Below are positions 50,541 through 58,024 of a stretch of DNA of 64,000 nt, in pieces. Positions within the stretch are counted from its first letter, which is position 1; every line of letters begins with the position of its first letter. Both the position numbers and the translations under genes were made by a program. The notes under the pieces were generated by a model that worked only from the letters and a program-made list of their open reading frames with translations, was not told the origin of the DNA and made no database searches. The stretch is from Kangiella shandongensis (GTDB lineage Bacteria; Pseudomonadota; Gammaproteobacteria; Enterobacterales; Kangiellaceae). The stretch spans positions 1 to 64,000 of the forward strand of contig NZ_JACNML010000001.1 of NCBI RefSeq assembly GCF_020005365.1, in the 5' to 3' direction.

Positions 50541-52232
50541 CTACCAAAAGCTTAGTATCAGGTAAACCGCTAATACAATGGTGACCCAAACCACCATACT
50601 GCCAGATAGCTGGGTTCGTGACAGAATACCGTCAGGCTCGTGGCGTGAGATCATATCTAATAGGCCGTTAACCCCACGCATAAAGACACGACGAACGGCT
50701 CTATCAATGGCCCAAAAGGTGCTGAAAAATGGTGTTAGTATCGCCGGGAACAGTCGACGGTAAATCCAGTCAATATCCAGATTCACCGATGGTAACTCAG
50801 GTGGGTACATACCTCTCAAGTTTAACCAGACGAAGGCCAACGCGGAGAAGAACAGTAACTGAGTTTGTGTTAATACGTGCGTAGCATCATATGGATTATA
50901 TCCGGTATCGAATGGCAACAAGCTATATAACGCCTGTGGATAGACACCTATCGCAATACATAATACTGCGGCGATACTCATGGCCATCAGCATATTTTTC
51001 GGCGGCTCACTGGTTCGAATCCCCGAGTCGTGTGCGAAGAAGGCAAAGTAAGGAATTTTAATACCCGCATGGTGGAACACACCCGCTGCCGAGAACAGCA
51101 ACAAAGCCCATGCCCAGCCATAACCATTATTCAATGCGGCTGACATCACCATCGACTTACTGACGAAACCGCTGAACAGCGGGAAAGCCGAAATCGACGC
51201 GGCTCCAACCATACATAAAATGGCGGTTTTCGGCATCGTCTTATAGAGACCACCCAGGCGGGAACCATCGATCTTACCTGTCATGTGCAGGACGGCGCCC
51301 ATCGACATGAATAACAATCCCTTAAATAGGATATCGTTAAAGGCGTGAGAAACGGCACCATTGACAGCCAGCGCCGTACCGATACCGATACCCACTACCA
51401 TAAAGCCGATCTGGTTAATCATACTGTAAGCCAGTACACGTCTCAGGTCATTTTCAATCACAGCAAAGAAAATTGGGAAGCAGGCCATGATAACGCCAAT
51501 ATAAATCAGCAGCTCGGTACCCGGATAAGCACGAGCCAGAGCGTATACCGCTACTTTTGTGGTGAAAGCACTCAGGAACACGGTCCCTGTTGGCGTTGCC
51601 TCAGGGTAAGCATCCGTCAGCCAATTGTGCAGCATCGGGAAGGCACACTTAATACCGAAGGCGATGAAAATAAGCCAGCTGGCAGTATCGCCAAGGCCGA
51701 TAAACTCAAAATCAATGGACTGGTTCTTATAGGCATAGAAAATAATACCAACCAGCAGGATTACTCCAGACAGAACCTGAATGATCAAATAACGCAAACC
51801 AGCAATATAGGAGCGCTCTGTGCGACGCGCCCAGATCAGGAAGACTGATGTTACCGCCAGCAATTCCCAAAAGATAAACAAGGTGATTAAGTCACCTGCA
51901 AAGACAGCACCGATAGCGCTGCCAGCATATAACAGGCCACTGACCTGCTGAAGTGTATCTTTAACGTGTAGCGCAAAGAGCATGCAGATAAAGGCTGCTA
52001 TATGGAAAATATAACCGAATAACAGGCTTAGTTTATCAACTTCAAAAACTTGTAACTGGAAGCTCAGGAAGTCAAAGCTCAGTATGGTTCCCACCGGTAC
52101 GGTAAGTAAGTGCAAACCACTCAGTACCGGCGTGATTAATAGAATGGCCTGACGTACTTTGCCGCTGGTAACAAGAGCAAGTACCGCACCAATGAAAAAA
52201 GGGACGAAAGCTGGTAACTCAGGCATCCACAT
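50541..52232 (-). CDS. Third antiporter-like (NuoL/MrpD-type) membrane subunit
   Basis: Proton/sodium-conducting membrane subunit related to NuoL/M/N and MrpA/D. About 14 hydrophobic helices are visible. The channel residues of the family are kept: Glu in LITLFIFWELLAVTSV, Lys in FGIKCAFPMLHNWLTDAYPEATPTG, Lys in AFTTKVAVYALAR, and Lys in FSGFVSKSMVMSAAL. A C-terminal extension (about 485-560, VNLDIDWIYRRLFPAIL...MRGVNGLLDMISRHEPDG) ends in one more helix. The ATG at 52232 with AGGGGG ahead is chosen; it overlaps the previous gene by 14 bp. It is the last gene of the antiporter operon. Confidence 0.88.
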   Translation of the reverse strand: MWMPELPAFVPFFIGAVLALVTSGKVRQAILLITPVLSGLHLLTVPVGTILSFDFLSFQLQVFEVDKLSLLFGYIFHIAAFICMLFALHVKDTLQQVSGLLYAGSAIGAVFAGDLITLFIFWELLAVTSVFLIWARRTERSYIAGLRYLIIQVLSGVILLVGIIFYAYKNQSIDFEFIGLGDTASWLIFIAFGIKCAFPMLHNWLTDAYPEATPTGTVFLSAFTTKVAVYALARAYPGTELLIYIGVIMACFPIFFAVIENDLRRVLAYSMINQIGFMVVGIGIGTALAVNGAVSHAFNDILFKGLLFMSMGAVLHMTGKIDGSRLGGLYKTMPKTAILCMVGAASISAFPLFSGFVSKSMVMSAALNNGYGWAWALLLFSAAGVFHHAGIKIPYFAFFAHDSGIRTSEPPKNMLMAMSIAAVLCIAIGVYPQALYSLLPFDTGYNPYDATHVLTQTQLLFFSALAFVWLNLRGMYPPELPSVNLDIDWIYRRLFPAILTPFFSTFWAIDRAVRRVFMRGVNGLLDMISRHEPDGILSRTQLSGSMVVWVTIVLAVYLILSFW

Positions 52233-52569
52233 CGCTGCCCCCTTTCGAGTCTTTCGTTGATTCGCTAGATGTCTCAGCATCTGTCTTTAGCTGATGCTGC
52301 TTCTGTTCAAGCTTGTCGTAATAGTCTTCATCACGCATTAAAAAAGTTCTCATCCACTTTGCAATCAGTACCAAAAGCACACAGCCGATAAAGCCGTAGA
52401 TGGGGTAAAAGCCAAAAAGCTCTTCCCATGAGTGATAGATATGGCGGTGGATCACAAACTCCAACAGCACTAAGGCAATACAGCAGCTATACAAACCATA
52501 GAGTAAACGCTTAACGTTTTTTGGTTTATCGAACAAGTACTTTTTTTCGCTATTATTATTCTCAGCCAT
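52219..52569 (-). CDS. Small membrane protein of the antiporter operon, unknown family
   Basis: Not recognised from a named family. The 116-residue protein has two hydrophobic helices (about 22-42, LYGLYSCCIALVLLEFVIH, and 56-70, YGFIGCVLLVLIAKWM) joined by the aromatic loop RHIYHSWEELFGFYPI. The tail is charged and disordered (from MRDEDYYDKLEQK to the end). It overlaps the genes on both sides (8 and 14 bp), so it is co-translated with two antiporter-like subunits and is probably an accessory subunit of the complex. Confidence 0.8.
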   Translation of the reverse strand: MAENNNSEKKYLFDKPKNVKRLLYGLYSCCIALVLLEFVIHRHIYHSWEELFGFYPIYGFIGCVLLVLIAKWMRTFLMRDEDYYDKLEQKQHQLKTDAETSSESTKDSKGGSDVDA

Positions 52570-54052
52570 TTGTACCTCCAGCGACGCCAGCCAATGTTTC
52601 TGCTAGTCCGTAAAAGACCTGTGGCCAGAAAAAGAAGACAATGGTCATGATGGCAGTAATGCTCAGTGCCAACAAACTCGGCCAGGGTGCTTCTTTAATC
52701 TCACCTCGATTAATGGAAACGACGCTTCTCTTACCGTCAAAAAAGGCGCGAATTGGAATCGGCAGTAAGTAAGCAATGTTCAAAAGAGAACTGATCATCA
52801 ATACAATCATCACAGCCCACTGCTCAGCTTCCAGGGTCCCCATCAACAGATACCACTTACTCCACATGCCCATCGCGGGCGGTAAGCCGATAATACTTAA
52901 GCTACCGATAAAGAAAGCGATCATGGTAACCGGCATAGTTTTGCCAAGTCCGCGCATATCACTGATTTCAGTCTTATGCGCTGCCACCATAATGGCGCCG
53001 GCGCAGAAGAACAGCGTAATCTTACCGAAAGCATGCGCCACAATGTGCAGTGCTCCCCCGAGTACTCCCGCCTGGGTTGCCAATAAGGCACCAATGGTAA
53101 TATACCCCAGCTGACTGACGGTGGAGTAAGCTAAACGTTTTTTCAGGTTATCCTGACGCATGGCGACCAGCGATGCTAACAGAACCGATGCGGTGGCTAC
53201 ATACAGCAACCAGTCAGTGATGGTTAGCTCATTAAGCAGGTCAATGCCAAATACATAGACACAGACCTTAAGAATGGAGAAAACACCCGCCTTTACAACT
53301 GCTACGGCATGTAACAGAGCACTCACTGGCGTTGGCGCGACCATGGCTGCCGGTAACCAGCGATGGAATGGCATCACCGCAGCTTTACCGATACCAAAAA
53401 CAAACAGCACCAATAGAACTCCTGCTACTACAGGCGAAACCGAGTCGTCAAAAATGCCGCCTTCGGCAAAGGTCAGGGTATCAGTCACGCTCCAAGTGCC
53501 GATAATGCCAAACAACAGGAACAGTATCGAAGTGGTCAGTAATATTGATAAATAGACTCGACCACCGTGACGCGCCTTATCAGTTCCTGCATGTGTCACC
53601 AGTGGATAGGTTGACAGGGTCAAGACCTCATAAAACACGAACAAGGTGAACAGGTTATCGGCAAACGCCAACCCCATCACGGCCGAAATCGCGACCGCGA
53701 AGCAGGCATAAAAGCGCGTCTGATTAGCCTCGTTATGGCCACGCATATAGCCAATGGCGTAAATTGAAGTCACTAACCACAATGAACCTGCAACTAACGT
53801 GAACAGTACTCCCAGTGGCTCAGCCCGAAATGCAATATCCAAACCAGGCATCAACTCCCACCAATGGATATAAGGCGCATTACCAGCGTCAAAGCCCTGA
53901 TAGAAAGCTACCACAGCAACCAATAGCAAAGCACCAGCGATTAAAGTGATCGCTTCGCGTAGATTCGGTTGCTTATGGAACAATAAGATCCCAGGGATTG
54001 CTAATAGTGGCAGTATGATGATCCACTGCATTAATAACTCTTGCTCCATCAT
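52562..54052 (-). CDS. Second MrpD/NuoM-like antiporter subunit
   Basis: Antiporter-like membrane subunit with about 14 helices. It is the most NuoL/MrpA-like of the three in the key region, with FHRWLPAAMVAPTPVSALLHAVAVVKAGVF. The conserved Glu (TLFVFYEVLTLSTY) and the Lys residues (GIGKAAVMP, VVKAGVFS, MWSKWYLLMG) are kept. It overlaps mrpD by 4 bp (ATGA). It may replace the N-terminal NuoL-like part of canonical MrpA, which this operon lacks. Confidence 0.88.
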   Translation of the reverse strand: MMEQELLMQWIIILPLLAIPGILLFHKQPNLREAITLIAGALLLVAVVAFYQGFDAGNAPYIHWWELMPGLDIAFRAEPLGVLFTLVAGSLWLVTSIYAIGYMRGHNEANQTRFYACFAVAISAVMGLAFADNLFTLFVFYEVLTLSTYPLVTHAGTDKARHGGRVYLSILLTTSILFLLFGIIGTWSVTDTLTFAEGGIFDDSVSPVVAGVLLVLFVFGIGKAAVMPFHRWLPAAMVAPTPVSALLHAVAVVKAGVFSILKVCVYVFGIDLLNELTITDWLLYVATASVLLASLVAMRQDNLKKRLAYSTVSQLGYITIGALLATQAGVLGGALHIVAHAFGKITLFFCAGAIMVAAHKTEISDMRGLGKTMPVTMIAFFIGSLSIIGLPPAMGMWSKWYLLMGTLEAEQWAVMIVLMISSLLNIAYLLPIPIRAFFDGKRSVVSINRGEIKEAPWPSLLALSITAIMTIVFFFWPQVFYGLAETLAGVAGGTNG

Positions 54053-55527
54053 TTCACCACCCCAAACAATAATTCCGCCGTCCTTTCTGATAAACCGGCT
54101 GTGAAACTGGTATCAATACCGAAGTAGAAATTTGCAATAACAAAAATCCAGGCCGGGATAAGAATTGCCGGCGGCGCTTCCTTATGCGACTGGTTATTTT
54201 GCAATGGTGCTTTAAAGTAAGCCACTTCAACGATGCGCCAGATATAAGCGATGGCAAGCAAGGAGCCGACCAAAACCAATACCGCAATGGGCCACCAGCC
54301 ATTTTCCAGCAATGCTAAAACCAGATACCACTTACTGACAAAGCCAACCGTCAACGGCACGCCTATTAAGCTTAAGCCACCAATCACGATCGCAGCCATG
54401 GTCCAGGGCATCTGACGCCCTAATCCAGCGAAGTTTTTTATATTAACGTTACCTATTCGATAAACCACACCAGCTAACGCAAGGAAAATAGCACTTTTCA
54501 TTAACGCGTGATTGAACAAGTGTAACAGTGTCGCTGTAAGGCCCGTTTTGTTGCCAATACCCAGTCCCAGGATCATATAACCAATTTGACTGACACTGGA
54601 GTAAGCAAATAGTCGCTTCACATTGGTCTGATAGATGGCAACGATAGAAGCGGCAATAATACCCACTAACCCCAGACTCACCAGTATTTCAGTCAACGGC
54701 AGATGTGAGAATGAAAACTCAAAGCCGTACACGGAGAAAATAAAGCGCAACAAGATATAGATAGCCACCTTGGTCGCCGTAGCTGCCAGAAAGACGGTAG
54801 CGATAGAGGGCGCATAAGCATAAGCGTTCGGCAACCATAAGTGCAGCGGGAATAAAGCCAGCTTCAAACACACACCGACCAGAAAGAACGCGAATGCTGT
54901 AAAGACTGTTTTAGTCTGCTCCACTTCAACCAGTCGCTCGGCCAGGTCGTGCATATTAAGCGTACCGGTCATCATGTACATCAAACCAATACCAATCAGG
55001 ATAAAGGTCGCACCGATGGTCCCCATGATCAAATACTGGTAGGAAGCCCAAAGTGAGCGACGATCATTACCCATGGCAATCATGGTATAAGAAGCTAATG
55101 ACGAAATTTCGAGGAAAACGAAGACGTTAAACGCATCGCCTGTCGCTAAAATGCCCAACAACCCAGTCAAACACAACATATAGGCTATATAAAAGTAGGT
55201 CTGCTTACTCTCTTTCATCTCCTTGTTCAGACTGGAACCAGCAGCCATCAAAGTAACGGTGCTGATGGAAGTGACCAGAATCAGCAAGTAAGCATTTAAC
55301 TCATCAATCCGGTACTCAATACCAATAGGTGCTTCCCAGCCACCCAAAGTATAGACCAGGGTGCCGTGAACATTGACCTGCTGCAATAGCATGATACTGA
55401 CGACAAAAGCCATAATATTGGCCAGCAGCACGAACCAGCGAACAAGCTTCGCTTCACGCAAAATAAAACATATCGGTGCTGCAAGTAATGGAATAATTAC
55501 CTGCAAAATCGGTAAATGTTGAATCAC
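54049..55527 (-). CDS. mrpD: Na+/H+ antiporter subunit MrpD
   Basis: Antiporter-like core subunit of Mrp complexes. Its 492 residues match MrpD. About 14 helices are visible, with the conserved Glu in VFVFLEISSLASY, Lys in CLKLALFPLHLWLPNAYAYAPSIATVF, Lys in ATKVAIYILLRF, and Lys in GFVSKWYLVLALL. It follows mrpC with a 4-bp overlap, as in most Mrp operons. Confidence 0.92.
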   Translation of the reverse strand: MIQHLPILQVIIPLLAAPICFILREAKLVRWFVLLANIMAFVVSIMLLQQVNVHGTLVYTLGGWEAPIGIEYRIDELNAYLLILVTSISTVTLMAAGSSLNKEMKESKQTYFYIAYMLCLTGLLGILATGDAFNVFVFLEISSLASYTMIAMGNDRRSLWASYQYLIMGTIGATFILIGIGLMYMMTGTLNMHDLAERLVEVEQTKTVFTAFAFFLVGVCLKLALFPLHLWLPNAYAYAPSIATVFLAATATKVAIYILLRFIFSVYGFEFSFSHLPLTEILVSLGLVGIIAASIVAIYQTNVKRLFAYSSVSQIGYMILGLGIGNKTGLTATLLHLFNHALMKSAIFLALAGVVYRIGNVNIKNFAGLGRQMPWTMAAIVIGGLSLIGVPLTVGFVSKWYLVLALLENGWWPIAVLVLVGSLLAIAYIWRIVEVAYFKAPLQNNQSHKEAPPAILIPAWIFVIANFYFGIDTSFTAGLSERTAELLFGVVK

Positions 55528-55892
55528 TCTGTAGAACCCTCTTGCTGCAAGTCTTTTTCTTGAATAACGTCTTCTTCTACAGTGCCGTATGCTTCTTTAA
55601 TGCGCACAGCCAGAGCAAGGCCCAGAGCTGTTGTCGCCACACCAACGACAATCGCCGTCAGAATAAGCACGTGAGGCAAAGGGTTTGTGTAGACTTCATA
55701 TTGATCATCGAGAATGGGCGCAGTGCCACCGATAACCTTACTGATACTGATGTATAAGATGAAGACTGAAGTCTGAAAAATGGTCAACCCCATTAACTTT
55801 TTGACCAAATTACCGTGGGCGATAACAATATAAAACCCACTCATCATTAGTAATATTACAATCCAGTAATTGTACTGTTCGAGAAAATTCAT
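55524..55892 (-). CDS. mrpC: Na+/H+ antiporter subunit MrpC (NuoK-like)
   Basis: Small three-helix subunit homologous to NuoK of complex I. Helices lie at about 10-27, 32-52 and 75-97. The signature is NLVKKLMGLTIFQTSVFILYISISKV and PLPHVLILTAIVVGVATTALGLALAVRI. The 122 residues are normal. The end is acidic and hydrophilic. It overlaps the genes on both sides by 4 bp. Confidence 0.93.
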   Translation of the reverse strand: MNFLEQYNYWIVILLMMSGFYIVIAHGNLVKKLMGLTIFQTSVFILYISISKVIGGTAPILDDQYEVYTNPLPHVLILTAIVVGVATTALGLALAVRIKEAYGTVEEDVIQEKDLQQEGSTE

Positions 55893-56878
55893 GCCGTCTC
55901 CTCTTCAGTTTTGCCAATTCTTCTGGCAAAGGTTAAGAAGATCAAAATCATTGCCGTTGCAACAGTGATACCAACGCCCAGCTCAATCACGATAATGCCA
56001 ATATGCTGGCCAGTTACATCGTTCTCGGCTAATACGCTGTAATTCAGATAGGTGCCGCCATTCAACATACTGGCGATACCCACGCTGCCATAAATCAGTA
56101 CGCCCAAAGCCGAAAGCACTTTAACCACAGGCACAGAAACAGCTTTTCGAGTCTGCTCGATACCAAACAACATGGCGTAAAGAATAATGCTCGAAGCAAA
56201 AATCACACCCGCCTGGAATCCTCCACCGGGACTATATTCGCCGTGAAACTGTACGTATAAGGCGAACAGCATAATCGGTGGAATCAAAATCTTGCTGACG
56301 ATACGTAAGATCTTATGCTGCAACATTGGGACGGGCTTTTCACTGTCTGCACGCTCGACGCGAGCAAACTCAAGCAATGCCAGAACACCGATAACAGCAG
56401 TGAATACCACCACTACTTCACCAAAGGTATCGAAACCACGATAACTGGCTAACACCGAAGTAACGATATTGGGAATATCAATATCCTGTGCCGACTGCTG
56501 AATATAGTAAGGGGCGACATGGGTTTGTGCCGGTGCCGATGGCGAACCGAAAGCCGGCATATCCACCGTACCCATGACGAGCATAATGCCCGTCACAATA
56601 ACCACGCTGAGGGCTATCTTGGGATGGTGTAGCTTTCTATTTTCAAAGCGCCCGGTCATGGTCAGGGTCGTCAACATCAGAATCGTTGAAATACCGGCGC
56701 CAACCGCAGCTTCAGTAAAAGCAACGTCAACCGCATCCATTAAAACAAAGAACCCAGCCGATAACAGGCTGTAAATCCCCGTTAGCATGACTGAAGCAAA
56801 CAGGTCCTTAGTGAAGGCTAAGGACAGAGCTGTCATCGCTAAGAACGCCAACAATATGACATTAATTAAAATTTCTAT
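55889..56878 (-). CDS. mrpB: Fused MrpA C-terminal/MrpB subunit (MbhD-MbhE-MbhF-like), apparent ATA start
   Basis: One protein joins three units: a DUF4040/MbhD-like part (ASVMLTGIYSLLSAGFFVLMD, DVAFTEAAVGAGIST), an MbhE-like part (VTSVLASYRGFDTFGEVVVVF) and MrpB/MbhF (QFHGEYSPGGGFQAGVIFASS). In canonical Mrp the first two are the tail of MrpA. The annotated-style start would be a TTG at 56854 with no ribosome site. Upstream the frame stays open to ATA at 56878-56876, 7 bases after AAGGAG, giving (M)EILINVILLAF, the usual family start. I use 56878. Confidence 0.85.
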   Translation of the reverse strand: MEILINVILLAFLAMTALSLAFTKDLFASVMLTGIYSLLSAGFFVLMDAVDVAFTEAAVGAGISTILMLTTLTMTGRFENRKLHHPKIALSVVIVTGIMLVMGTVDMPAFGSPSAPAQTHVAPYYIQQSAQDIDIPNIVTSVLASYRGFDTFGEVVVVFTAVIGVLALLEFARVERADSEKPVPMLQHKILRIVSKILIPPIMLFALYVQFHGEYSPGGGFQAGVIFASSIILYAMLFGIEQTRKAVSVPVVKVLSALGVLIYGSVGIASMLNGGTYLNYSVLAENDVTGQHIGIIVIELGVGITVATAMILIFLTFARRIGKTEEETA

Positions 56879-56886
56879 GACTCGAC

Positions 56887-56892
56887 TCCTTA
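56887..56892 (-). promoter_or_regulatory. Ribosome binding site pointing to an ATA start
   Basis: AAGGAG on the minus strand lies between the mrpG stop and the mrpB coding frame, seven bases ahead of ATA (56878). No ATG, GTG or TTG sits at usable spacing. Confidence 0.65.
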
Positions 56893-57267
56893 TTATTGTT
56901 CATCATCAGACGTATTTTGACGTCCGAACTTGTTCAATACATCTTCCTTATCGTTTTTATGGCTTCCTTGCATTGGACGAAGACCACCATGCAGTGCAGC
57001 TTTTGCTAGCGCATGACTGGCCGTCGGACTGGTAATTAAGATAAACAGCAAAATCAATATTAACTTAACCAGGACAATGACCTCGCCTCCGGTTTGAAGC
57101 ATTAATCCAATCAGGATTAAGCCACTGCCTAAAGTATCCGTCACGCTTGCTGCGTGCATGCGACTAAAGAATTCAGGAAAACGATGAATTCCAATCGCAC
57201 CGGAAAAGCAAATAAAGCCGCCAATGATGAGTAGCGCCCAGCTTAAACCATCGATAAAGAAGCTCAT
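56893..57267 (-). CDS. mrpG: Na+/H+ antiporter subunit MrpG
   Basis: Small membrane subunit with three helices (about 8-26, 45-62, 64-82). The family signature is GAIGIHRFPEFFSRMHAASVTDTLGSGLILIG, then ITSPTASHALAKAALHGGL. The 124 residues are normal. The hydrophilic tail is slightly longer than usual. It overlaps mrpF by 4 bp. Confidence 0.92.
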   Translation of the reverse strand: MSFFIDGLSWALLIIGGFICFSGAIGIHRFPEFFSRMHAASVTDTLGSGLILIGLMLQTGGEVIVLVKLILILLFILITSPTASHALAKAALHGGLRPMQGSHKNDKEDVLNKFGRQNTSDDEQ

Positions 57268-57536
57268 TTAACCTCCTCTTCTGGATCAGCTTTTTTGTAC
57301 TCAAAAAAGCGTAATACGCCAATGATGGCGATAAAGTTGATCAGGGCATAAACAAGTGCCACATCCAGAAAGTCCGGGCGCCCCATCAAATACCCTAAAA
57401 TCGCAATGAATAAAACGGTTTTGGTACCGAACATATTAACGGCCAATATGCGGTCATATAGCGTTGGCCCTATAAAAGCGCGCACTAAAGCCAACGCCAT
57501 GGCTACCAAAATGGCAATTATAGCGGCTAGAAACAT
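57264..57536 (-). CDS. mrpF: Na+/H+ antiporter subunit MrpF
   Basis: Three-helix subunit of 90 residues. The signature is RAFIGPTLYDRILAVNMFGTKTVLFIAILGYLMGRPDFLDVALVYALINFIAIIGVLRF. It is placed directly between mrpE and mrpG, with overlaps of 1 and 4 bp. Confidence 0.93.
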   Translation of the reverse strand: MFLAAIIAILVAMALALVRAFIGPTLYDRILAVNMFGTKTVLFIAILGYLMGRPDFLDVALVYALINFIAIIGVLRFFEYKKADPEEEVK

Positions 57537-58024
57537 TATTCCTCCAAACGCTTAACACGACGATCCATATCTCCGCCTTGAAGATATTCAATCGCATCAT
57601 AGGACAGTGCGTACACAATCATTGTGTCGCCTTCAATATCAAGAGTCGTAGTTCCGGGGGTTAACGTAATGGAGTTAGCATAAATAGTTTTCCCCATATC
57701 CGTTTCTTGGCTCATCGGGAGTCGCGCAACAACAGGATCCAGAGACTTTGGACCTTTCCAAATACGTTTTATAACAGAGAGGTTGGATTCCACCAGGGCT
57801 TTCAGTAACCACAACCAGTAAACAATGATTCGACGGCTGACCTGTAATGGCTGAGATTCTTCATCCAGAATATTCAAACGGAAAGCCATAAAAACCACAA
57901 AAGCCACCGACACAGCACCTAGCGATAATAGCAAACCATTAAAGAAACCTGAGTTACCAATCCAGATGAGTGATAACACAACAATTAGACTGATGATATA
58001 GCGAAGATTTGTTTTTTTCTTCAT
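57536..58024 (-). CDS. mrpE: Na+/H+ antiporter subunit MrpE
   Basis: First gene of the operon. Two to three N-terminal helices are followed by a cytoplasmic domain with the MrpE pattern LLKALVESNLSVIKRIWKGPKSLDPVVARLPM, then GKTIYANSITLTPGTTTLDIEGDTMIVYALSYDA. The 162 residues are normal. The 382-base region upstream should hold the promoter. Confidence 0.93.
   Translation of the reverse strand: MKKKTNLRYIISLIVVLSLIWIGNSGFFNGLLLSLGAVSVAFVVFMAFRLNILDEESQPLQVSRRIIVYWLWLLKALVESNLSVIKRIWKGPKSLDPVVARLPMSQETDMGKTIYANSITLTPGTTTLDIEGDTMIVYALSYDAIEYLQGGDMDRRVKRLEE

Follow-up and report, generated by a model that had tools for sequence, protein, structure and literature searches.

The window analysed here, the first 64,000 nucleotides (nt) of contig NZ_JACNML010000001.1 of Kangiella shandongensis, carries on its minus strand, read from 58024 to 50541, an Mrp-related cluster of nine genes, which we denote E, F, G, A'B, C, D1, D2, S and D3 (Table 1). 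Pfam searches and open reading frame (ORF) calls identified MNHE, MrpF_PhaF, PhaG_MnhG and Oxidored_q2 proteins, a single ORF uniting MbhD, MbhE and MnhB (A'B), three Proton_antipo_M proteins and the small protein S, which stayed below every curated cut-off. A'B and D3 exceed NCBIfam cut-offs and are therefore antiporter subunits of known type. For D3, the most likely start is the ATG at 52232, giving 563 amino acids (aa; the longest ORF, from 52280, would give 579 aa), and A'B spans 329 codons from an ATA at 56878-56876 or 321 aa from a TTG at 56854. A preliminary description of this locus had listed nine overlapping minus-strand genes; order, count and strand agree with our analysis, but overlap is confined to seven of the eight junctions (by 1, 4, 4, 4, 4, 8 and 14 nt). 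The sole non-overlapping junction lies between G and A'B, where 38 nt precede the TTG start and 14 nt the ATA at 56878. A gap of 382 nt separates E from the next upstream gene, and fadR follows downstream, also on the minus strand. Promoter-like sites occur at background frequency (16 against an expected 17.2), while terminator-like sites somewhat exceed it (16 against 10.5, standard deviation 3.6).

Table 1 Genes and signals of the nine-gene cluster
Feature	Coordinates	Strand	Evidence
MrpE-like subunit (E), 162 aa	57536..58024	-	PF01899 82.6 bits; Pro of MrpE loop kept
MrpF-like subunit (F), 90 aa	57264..57536	-	PF04066 65.6 bits; Asn34 at canonical Asp35 position
MrpG-like subunit (G), 124 aa	56893..57267	-	PF03334 96.1 bits; TIGR01300 over cut-off
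Shine-Dalgarno AAGGAG before A'B gene	56886..56891	-	Sequence; 7 nt ahead of ATA
A'-B fusion (A'B)	55889..56878	-	PF13244, PF20501, PF04039; NF009161 440.8 bits (cut-off 272)
MrpC/NuoK-like subunit (C), 122 aa	55524..55892	-	PF00420 76.3 bits; NF005624, NF005621 over cut-off
Antiporter-like subunit D1	54049..55527	-	PF00361 215 bits; MrpD/NuoN/MbhH side of tree
Antiporter-like subunit D2, opens D2-S-D3 cassette	52562..54052	-	PF00361 201.3 bits; own clade 100/100
Small membrane protein S, 116 aa	52219..52569	-	Conserved, without named family, accompanies D3
Antiporter-like subunit D3	50541..52232	-	NF009310 750.3 bits (cut-off 564); own clade 100/100

As the preliminary description had stated, a full-length MrpA is absent: the PF00361 proteins of the cluster lack MbhD and MbhE, and the other three of the six PF00361 genes in the genome, located on contig C23, group with NuoL, NuoM and NuoN. 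Group 3 Mrp systems are reported to lack mrpA and sometimes to hold mrpD in multiple copies (PMC8415708), and our cluster, without mrpA and with E, F, G, B and C subunits each over its Pfam cut-off, fits this group as published. Irregular Mrp gene orders have been reviewed (PMC5703873), and MrpBCDEFG was reported in Gemmatimonadota (PMC9426454). The stand-alone Mrp of P. furiosus (mrpEFGBB'CD; PMC8415708) shares the E-F-G-A'-B-C-D order and the absence of mrpA; it has one antiporter subunit, whereas the window adds D2, S and D3 and, in its lineage, fuses A' to B. In the Group 3 Mrp of Ca. Nitrospira alkalitolerans, two NuoM/NuoL-like genes directly follow mrpD, as in the window, and were taken as extra mrpA- or mrpD-like genes; the description used for this comparison speaks neither of a small gene separating the two nor of wider conservation or a tie to complex I (PMC7784846). 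Canonical Mrp (Groups 1 and 2) has in common with the window the E, F, G, B and C subunits, the MrpD-side subunit and most of the cation-path residues tested, but differs in possessing an MrpA with fused A', two rather than three antiporter-like subunits, and Asp instead of Asn at MrpF position 35. The Pyrococcus Mbh and Mbs complexes (PDB 6cfw and 6u8y) share the A'/B domain make-up, and their MbhH and MbsH fall on the D1 side of the tree; unlike them, the window cluster has no hydrogenase or sulfane reductase subunits. The earlier proposal of a distinct Mrp subclass is supported by the Mbh-like order, three intact antiporter-like subunits and the lack of MrpA; the refuting case named with it, a well-described subgroup, applies in part, Group 3 Mrp and NuoM/NuoL-like genes behind mrpD being already in print (PMC8415708, PMC7784846).

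All three large subunits retain their channel residues in the window, in line with what had been noted before: E140, K222, K253 and K399 in D1, E142, K223, K254 and K399 in D2, and E139, K211, K242 and K375 in D3 (579-aa numbering). We take these to be the Glu of transmembrane helix (TM) 5 and the Lys of TM7, TM8 and TM12, with the helix names given by analogy. Gaps aside, they are invariant in 106 D1, 111 D2 and 115 D3 homologues, which are not independent of one another (e.g., L041 and L086 are the same contig), save for the TM7 Lys of D3, where 104 homologues have Lys and 11 have Asn. A phylogeny of the large subunits against MrpA, MrpD, MbhH and NuoL/M/N, suggested in the preliminary description, resolved them into three separate clades. 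In this tree of 91 sequences, among them seven PDB chain segments (some rows are long or odd in composition, L173_D3x foremost), D1 (99/96), D2 (100/100) and D3 (100/100) each form one group apart from MrpA, MrpD, NuoL, NuoM, NuoN and Hyf/Hyc. D1 shares its side with MrpD, NuoN, MbhH and MbsH (95/98), and the D2 and D3 clades, both outside the MrpD clade, take in haloarchaeal proteins and proteins of the green complex I discussed below. A recent tandem duplication as the origin of D1, D2 and D3 was rejected, with a single D1+D2+D3 clade disfavoured (approximately unbiased test, p 0.0128). D2 might represent the lost N-terminal part of MrpA: its best PDB matches were NdhF, MbsH and MrpA, and a tree group of D2, MrpA and NuoL, together with HyfD and the last subunit of locus L175, reached 66/87 only. 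The AlphaFold2 model of D3 (predicted local distance difference test score, pLDDT, 85.0; predicted template-modelling score, pTM, 0.82) ends in a helix at 450-472, a 44-residue helix at 487-530 and a helix at 542-562, with stretches of low confidence at 349-355, 480-485 and 534-541. These predicted C-terminal helices are as expected for a distal subunit with a lateral helix, and Foldseek placed MrpA, MrpD and NuoL chains among the best matches of the model.

The nine-gene cluster is widespread and no local oddity. Searching named genomes with D3 yielded 178 stretches with a relative, of which we kept the best 80, so that the sample leans towards close kin; the closest named relatives are Kangiella, with D3 84-92% identical. 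All 57 of these 80 loci with at least 6.5 kb of upstream sequence display the order E-F-G-A'-(B)-C-D1-D2-S-D3 (four gave no match to the B profile, and three have an extra A' match). Among the loci scored for both A' and B, 25 have them fused and 28 separate. Loci bearing all nine labels, with B optional, amount to 61 complete clusters; the 60 with an assigned phylum span ten phyla (44 in Pseudomonadota), although single phylum assignments are uncertain because most clusters outside Pseudomonadota are metagenome-assembled. Among 274 genomes drawn from the class, 49 contain D3 over the cut-off, 54 a strong A'/B match (a threshold set by us at about 130 bits) and 48 both. Six genomes have A'/B without D3 over the cut-off (G011, G038, G043, G153, G215 and G251): in G043 and G153 the contig ends within the cluster, and the D3 relatives of G215 and G251 score too low to pass (390 and 499 bits). 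Only G116 combines D3 over the cut-off with no strong A'/B match.

The small protein S has a charged motif at its C-terminus and a core that is conserved. Of the 274 class genomes, 50 contain it, namely all 49 with D3 over the cut-off and G038, whose match is close to the end of a contig. At 50 of its 53 places, D3 follows directly downstream within 300 bases, and 79 of the 80 retained D3 stretches include S (the remaining contig starts inside D3). G195 and G215 have weaker D3 matches, with S not detected. No Pfam or NCBIfam family matched more than 3 of 36 S members (best E value 1e-4 to DUF7670, one member), and no sequence relative was found in the PDB. S thus fits no Pfam or NCBIfam family, yet none of the 49 class genomes that pass the D3 cut-off is without it, a combination that looks new. 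Its AlphaFold2 model is weak (pLDDT 70, pTM 0.34) and places helices at 16-42, 54-77 and 83-106, the first two of which look like membrane helices when judged by eye.

D2, S and D3 also recur outside Mrp clusters. The best plasmid relatives of D3 come from Sinorhizobium, where two annotated records read NuoJ, NuoK, a D2-like protein, a 'hypothetical protein', a D3-like protein, NuoM, NuoN and NuoA onward. Across these two records and an unannotated pSymA stretch, the profiles scored 647-650 for D2, 59-65 for the hypothetical protein (S profile) and 667-673 for D3. The S alignment alone retrieves three green complex I operons (E values 7.5e-16 to 2.8e-13), with S profile scores lower than in Mrp clusters. 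In the green complex I of rhizobia, NuoL is described as replaced by two MrpD-like subunits (PMC9040806); this complex shares D2-S-D3 with the window in the same order and from the same clades, but there the cassette sits among nuo genes, whereas in the window it is set among Mrp E-F-G-A'B-C-D1 and followed by fadR. In a phylum-level draw of 398 genomes, S was present in 22, and 17 stretches from 15 of these comprise 12 Mrp clusters of the nine-gene type (one of them truncated ahead of E), three green complex I operons, one lone D2-S-D3 and one contig fragment. D2-S-D3 is a portable cassette that takes the place of NuoL in green complex I and also stands alone, which looks new. The titles and abstract openings of the literature consulted returned nothing on S or on a D2-S-D3 common to Mrp and complex I; this may be in print elsewhere.

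Several loci show further arrangements. The lone D2-S-D3 (L224; G345:C27, 8751-12316) lies between ORFs that resemble flagellar and regulatory genes by eye; the same genome (93% complete, 2% contamination) also carries two nine-gene clusters, one of them cut by a contig start. On contig G116:C244 (L174/L185), two S-D3 pairs occur with D2 absent from the contig and an ORF of 1759 aa nearby, and no D2, Mrp or nuo subunit was found within 20 kb of the pairs. A genome of the gammaproteobacterial class (G211, 86% complete, 4% contamination) contains NuoJ-NuoK-D2-S-D3 of the green complex I type on contig C66 (L194) and a second S-D3 locus with a D3 of the nine-gene type. Two haloarchaeal plasmids read E-F-G-A'-B-C-D1-D2-D3. 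In G140:C5 (L173/L187), a distant relative of D3 (351 bits) comes after MrpA-B-C-D-E-F-G, and S was not detected. Locus L175 (G025:C1:76000-87000) has E-F-G-A'-B-C-D1 followed by a 674-aa NuoL-like protein and no D2-S-D3, and G025 also has the nine-gene type. L178 (G264:C3) and L179 (G218:C43) hold Mrp-like E, F, G, A', B and C ending in one long antiporter-like ORF of 1152 and 1044 aa, respectively (starts uncertain), which groups with MbsH' in the tree.

Some of these arrangements bear on the idea that the operon encodes two machines, a seven-subunit E-F-G-A'-B-C-D1 antiporter and a separate, co-expressed D2-S-D3 proton-conducting complex. E-F-G-A'-B-C-D1 is the same set as the stand-alone Mrp of P. 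furiosus, and in G025 a NuoL-like subunit follows it where D2-S-D3 would otherwise lie; G345 carries a lone D2-S-D3 in addition to two nine-gene clusters, and S-D3 pairs occur without the rest in G116. On the other hand, the genes overlap, the cassette replaces an integral subunit in green complex I, and the last two large subunits are no loose add-ons, a possibility raised in the preliminary description: D1-D2-S-D3 is contiguous in 57 of 57 loci, and C and D1 remain with D2-S-D3 in all three class genomes that split the cluster. We consider two machines rather unlikely.

The cation path proposed for Mrp (PMC7419157) is largely preserved, with the columns matched by motif. E48, D142 and E146 of A'B, the equivalents of MrpA E706, D792 and E796, are each conserved in 45 out of the 46 long ORFs for A' or A'B, and E48 aligns with MbhD E69. 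G retains H38 (MrpG His42) in 103 of 103 sequences and P81 (MrpG Pro86) in 101 of 103, and the equivalent of Pro114 in the E subunit is present in 101 of 101. The MrpF Asp35 position, by contrast, is Asn34 in the window, and Asn in 99 and Gly in 2 of 101 sequences, a pattern that looks new. The loss of MrpC histidines was dropped as a special feature, several other MrpC sequences also being without them. Asp35 was essential in one Mrp, and Glu or Asn in its place was reported to be not so harmful in B. subtilis (PMC7419157). Among 16 further MrpF proteins matched by motif, 13 have an acidic residue and three Asn, the latter being both haloarchaeal clusters and L175; as L175 lacks D2-S-D3, the Asn does not strictly track the cassette. 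The substitution suggests altered cation handling, and the same architecture might move a different ion (K+, Ca2+ or other) or run in the direction of proton export. Other Mrp complexes have been reported to transport K+ or Ca2+ (PMC5703873), and the near-uniform Asn points the same way; the retained equivalents of E69/E706, D792 and E796 and the mild effect of Glu or Asn in B. subtilis argue against it. We regard a different ion or direction as quite improbable.

The preliminary description had also considered a membrane arm whose redox partner is encoded elsewhere. Such an electron-transfer module would agree with the Mbh-like gene order and with D2-S-D3 belonging to a true redox complex in rhizobia. 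However, the genome has one gene for the 49-kDa subunit (NuoD, PF00346; two pieces of one ORF) and one NuoH, both with the nuo genes on C23, and yielded no match to the NiFe hydrogenase large subunit (PF00374), which leaves no spare redox module of these types. Moreover, its complex I has three antiporter-like subunits of its own. We surveyed 62 upstream flanks (mostly about 4 kb, one reaching 4.5 kb and five below 1 kb). On the downstream side, 81 flanks were covered, of which 54 extended to 4.5 kb and 11 were shorter than 1 kb. The commonest neighbour family occurs at nine loci. Pfam assigned ten neighbour representatives to thymidine kinase, YicC, nitroreductase, a GntR regulator, a histidine kinase, Ldh_2, a protein kinase, an ABC ATPase and a response regulator, with one lacking a match; no recurrent membrane redox subunit was found among the neighbour families checked. 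The soluble oxidoreductases nitroreductase (eight loci) and Ldh_2 (seven loci) recur downstream in one group of lineages; we do not regard them as partners. A redox partner elsewhere is therefore highly improbable, although a partner of another kind than the redox modules tested may exist.

The A' gene further stands out by its start. In the window, AAGGAG lies seven bases ahead of the ATA, and the open frame contains no ATG, GTG or TTG before the TTG eight codons past it. Among 103 A' loci, 53 have a standard start at the ATA place or within two codons before it, and 33 have no standard start upstream in the open frame and show ATC (25) or ATA (8) at this place. In a further 11 with ATC or ATA, no standard start comes until farther upstream (three codons away in two of them); the rest are three other codons and three gaps. 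Within -8 to +4 codons, 60 of the 103 loci have a standard start, and 39 of the other 43 show ATC (28) or ATA (11). Under the same test, a near standard start was found for F in 100 of 100 loci, G in 100 of 101, C in 103 of 103, D1 in 103 of 105, D2 in 105 of 109 and D3 in 108 of 114; for E (54 of 99) and S (99 of 112), the N-termini vary, which makes this control uninformative. Where a near standard start was missing (40 A' loci), a Shine-Dalgarno match of at least four bases preceded the ATA/ATC place in 37 and the next standard codon in three. A' thus apparently starts at AUA or AUC at such loci, which also looks new. It is uncommon for AUC or AUA to recur as a start, and this subunit may be under translational control.

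Taken together, the operon probably encodes a Group 3-type Mrp cation/proton antiporter driven by the proton-motive force (pmf), with a serial proton arm of three subunits. This reading builds on the subunit assignment, the kept cation-path residues, the gene order in 57 of 57 loci, the cohesion of C-D1-D2-S-D3 in split clusters, the lack of a spare NuoD, NuoH or hydrogenase and of a membrane redox gene among the neighbours checked, the green complex I order and the D3 model. At the sequence level, it is supported by a nine-gene unit of conserved order, three channel-competent subunits in separate clades, the co-occurrence of S and D3, and D2-S-D3 in the place of NuoL. In such an antiporter, D1 would lie next to the cation-handling E-F-G-A'B-C block, followed by D2 and, at the distal end, by D3, braced by its C-terminal lateral-type helix; S would bind D3 and perhaps D2. 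With one proton per channel per cycle, about 3 H+ instead of 2 would pass per cycle, and we propose that cation extrusion would thereby be driven more strongly when the pmf is low or salt is high.

Several observations weigh against a three-subunit antiporter of this kind. Three class genomes split the cluster between B and C: in G119 (L073, L189; contig C6), ~190 kb of the same contig separate E-F-G-A'-B from C-D1-D2-S-D3, and in G096 (L191) and G217 (L190), C-D1-D2-S-D3 and A'/B are on different contigs, with no E-F-G-A'-B beside C-D1-D2-S-D3. S was not detected in the two haloarchaeal clusters, in G251 (L071, D3 present) or in G140. The lone D2-S-D3 (L224) and the D2-less S-D3 pairs (G116) indicate that the cassette may work by itself, and Asn in place of MrpF Asp35 means that the cation route may differ. 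Finally, Foldseek does not separate MrpA-like from NuoL-like for D3.

A broader proposal, which we regard as evenly balanced, is that D2-S-D3 would be a portable proton-channel cassette with S as its dedicated subunit and a new membrane-protein family, joined to Mrp, joined to complex I or alone; in every setting it would contribute further proton channels and thereby alter the ion stoichiometry. Because one two-channel cassette is found both on an antiporter powered by the pmf and on a complex I powered by redox chemistry, the system would offer a natural comparison of how many ions complex I-like machines move per cycle and of how far coupling reaches along chains of antiporter-like subunits. 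The findings also point to a small subunit, S, that is unnamed in the family databases checked, and to an Mrp subclass whose proposed cation path has one of its acids replaced.

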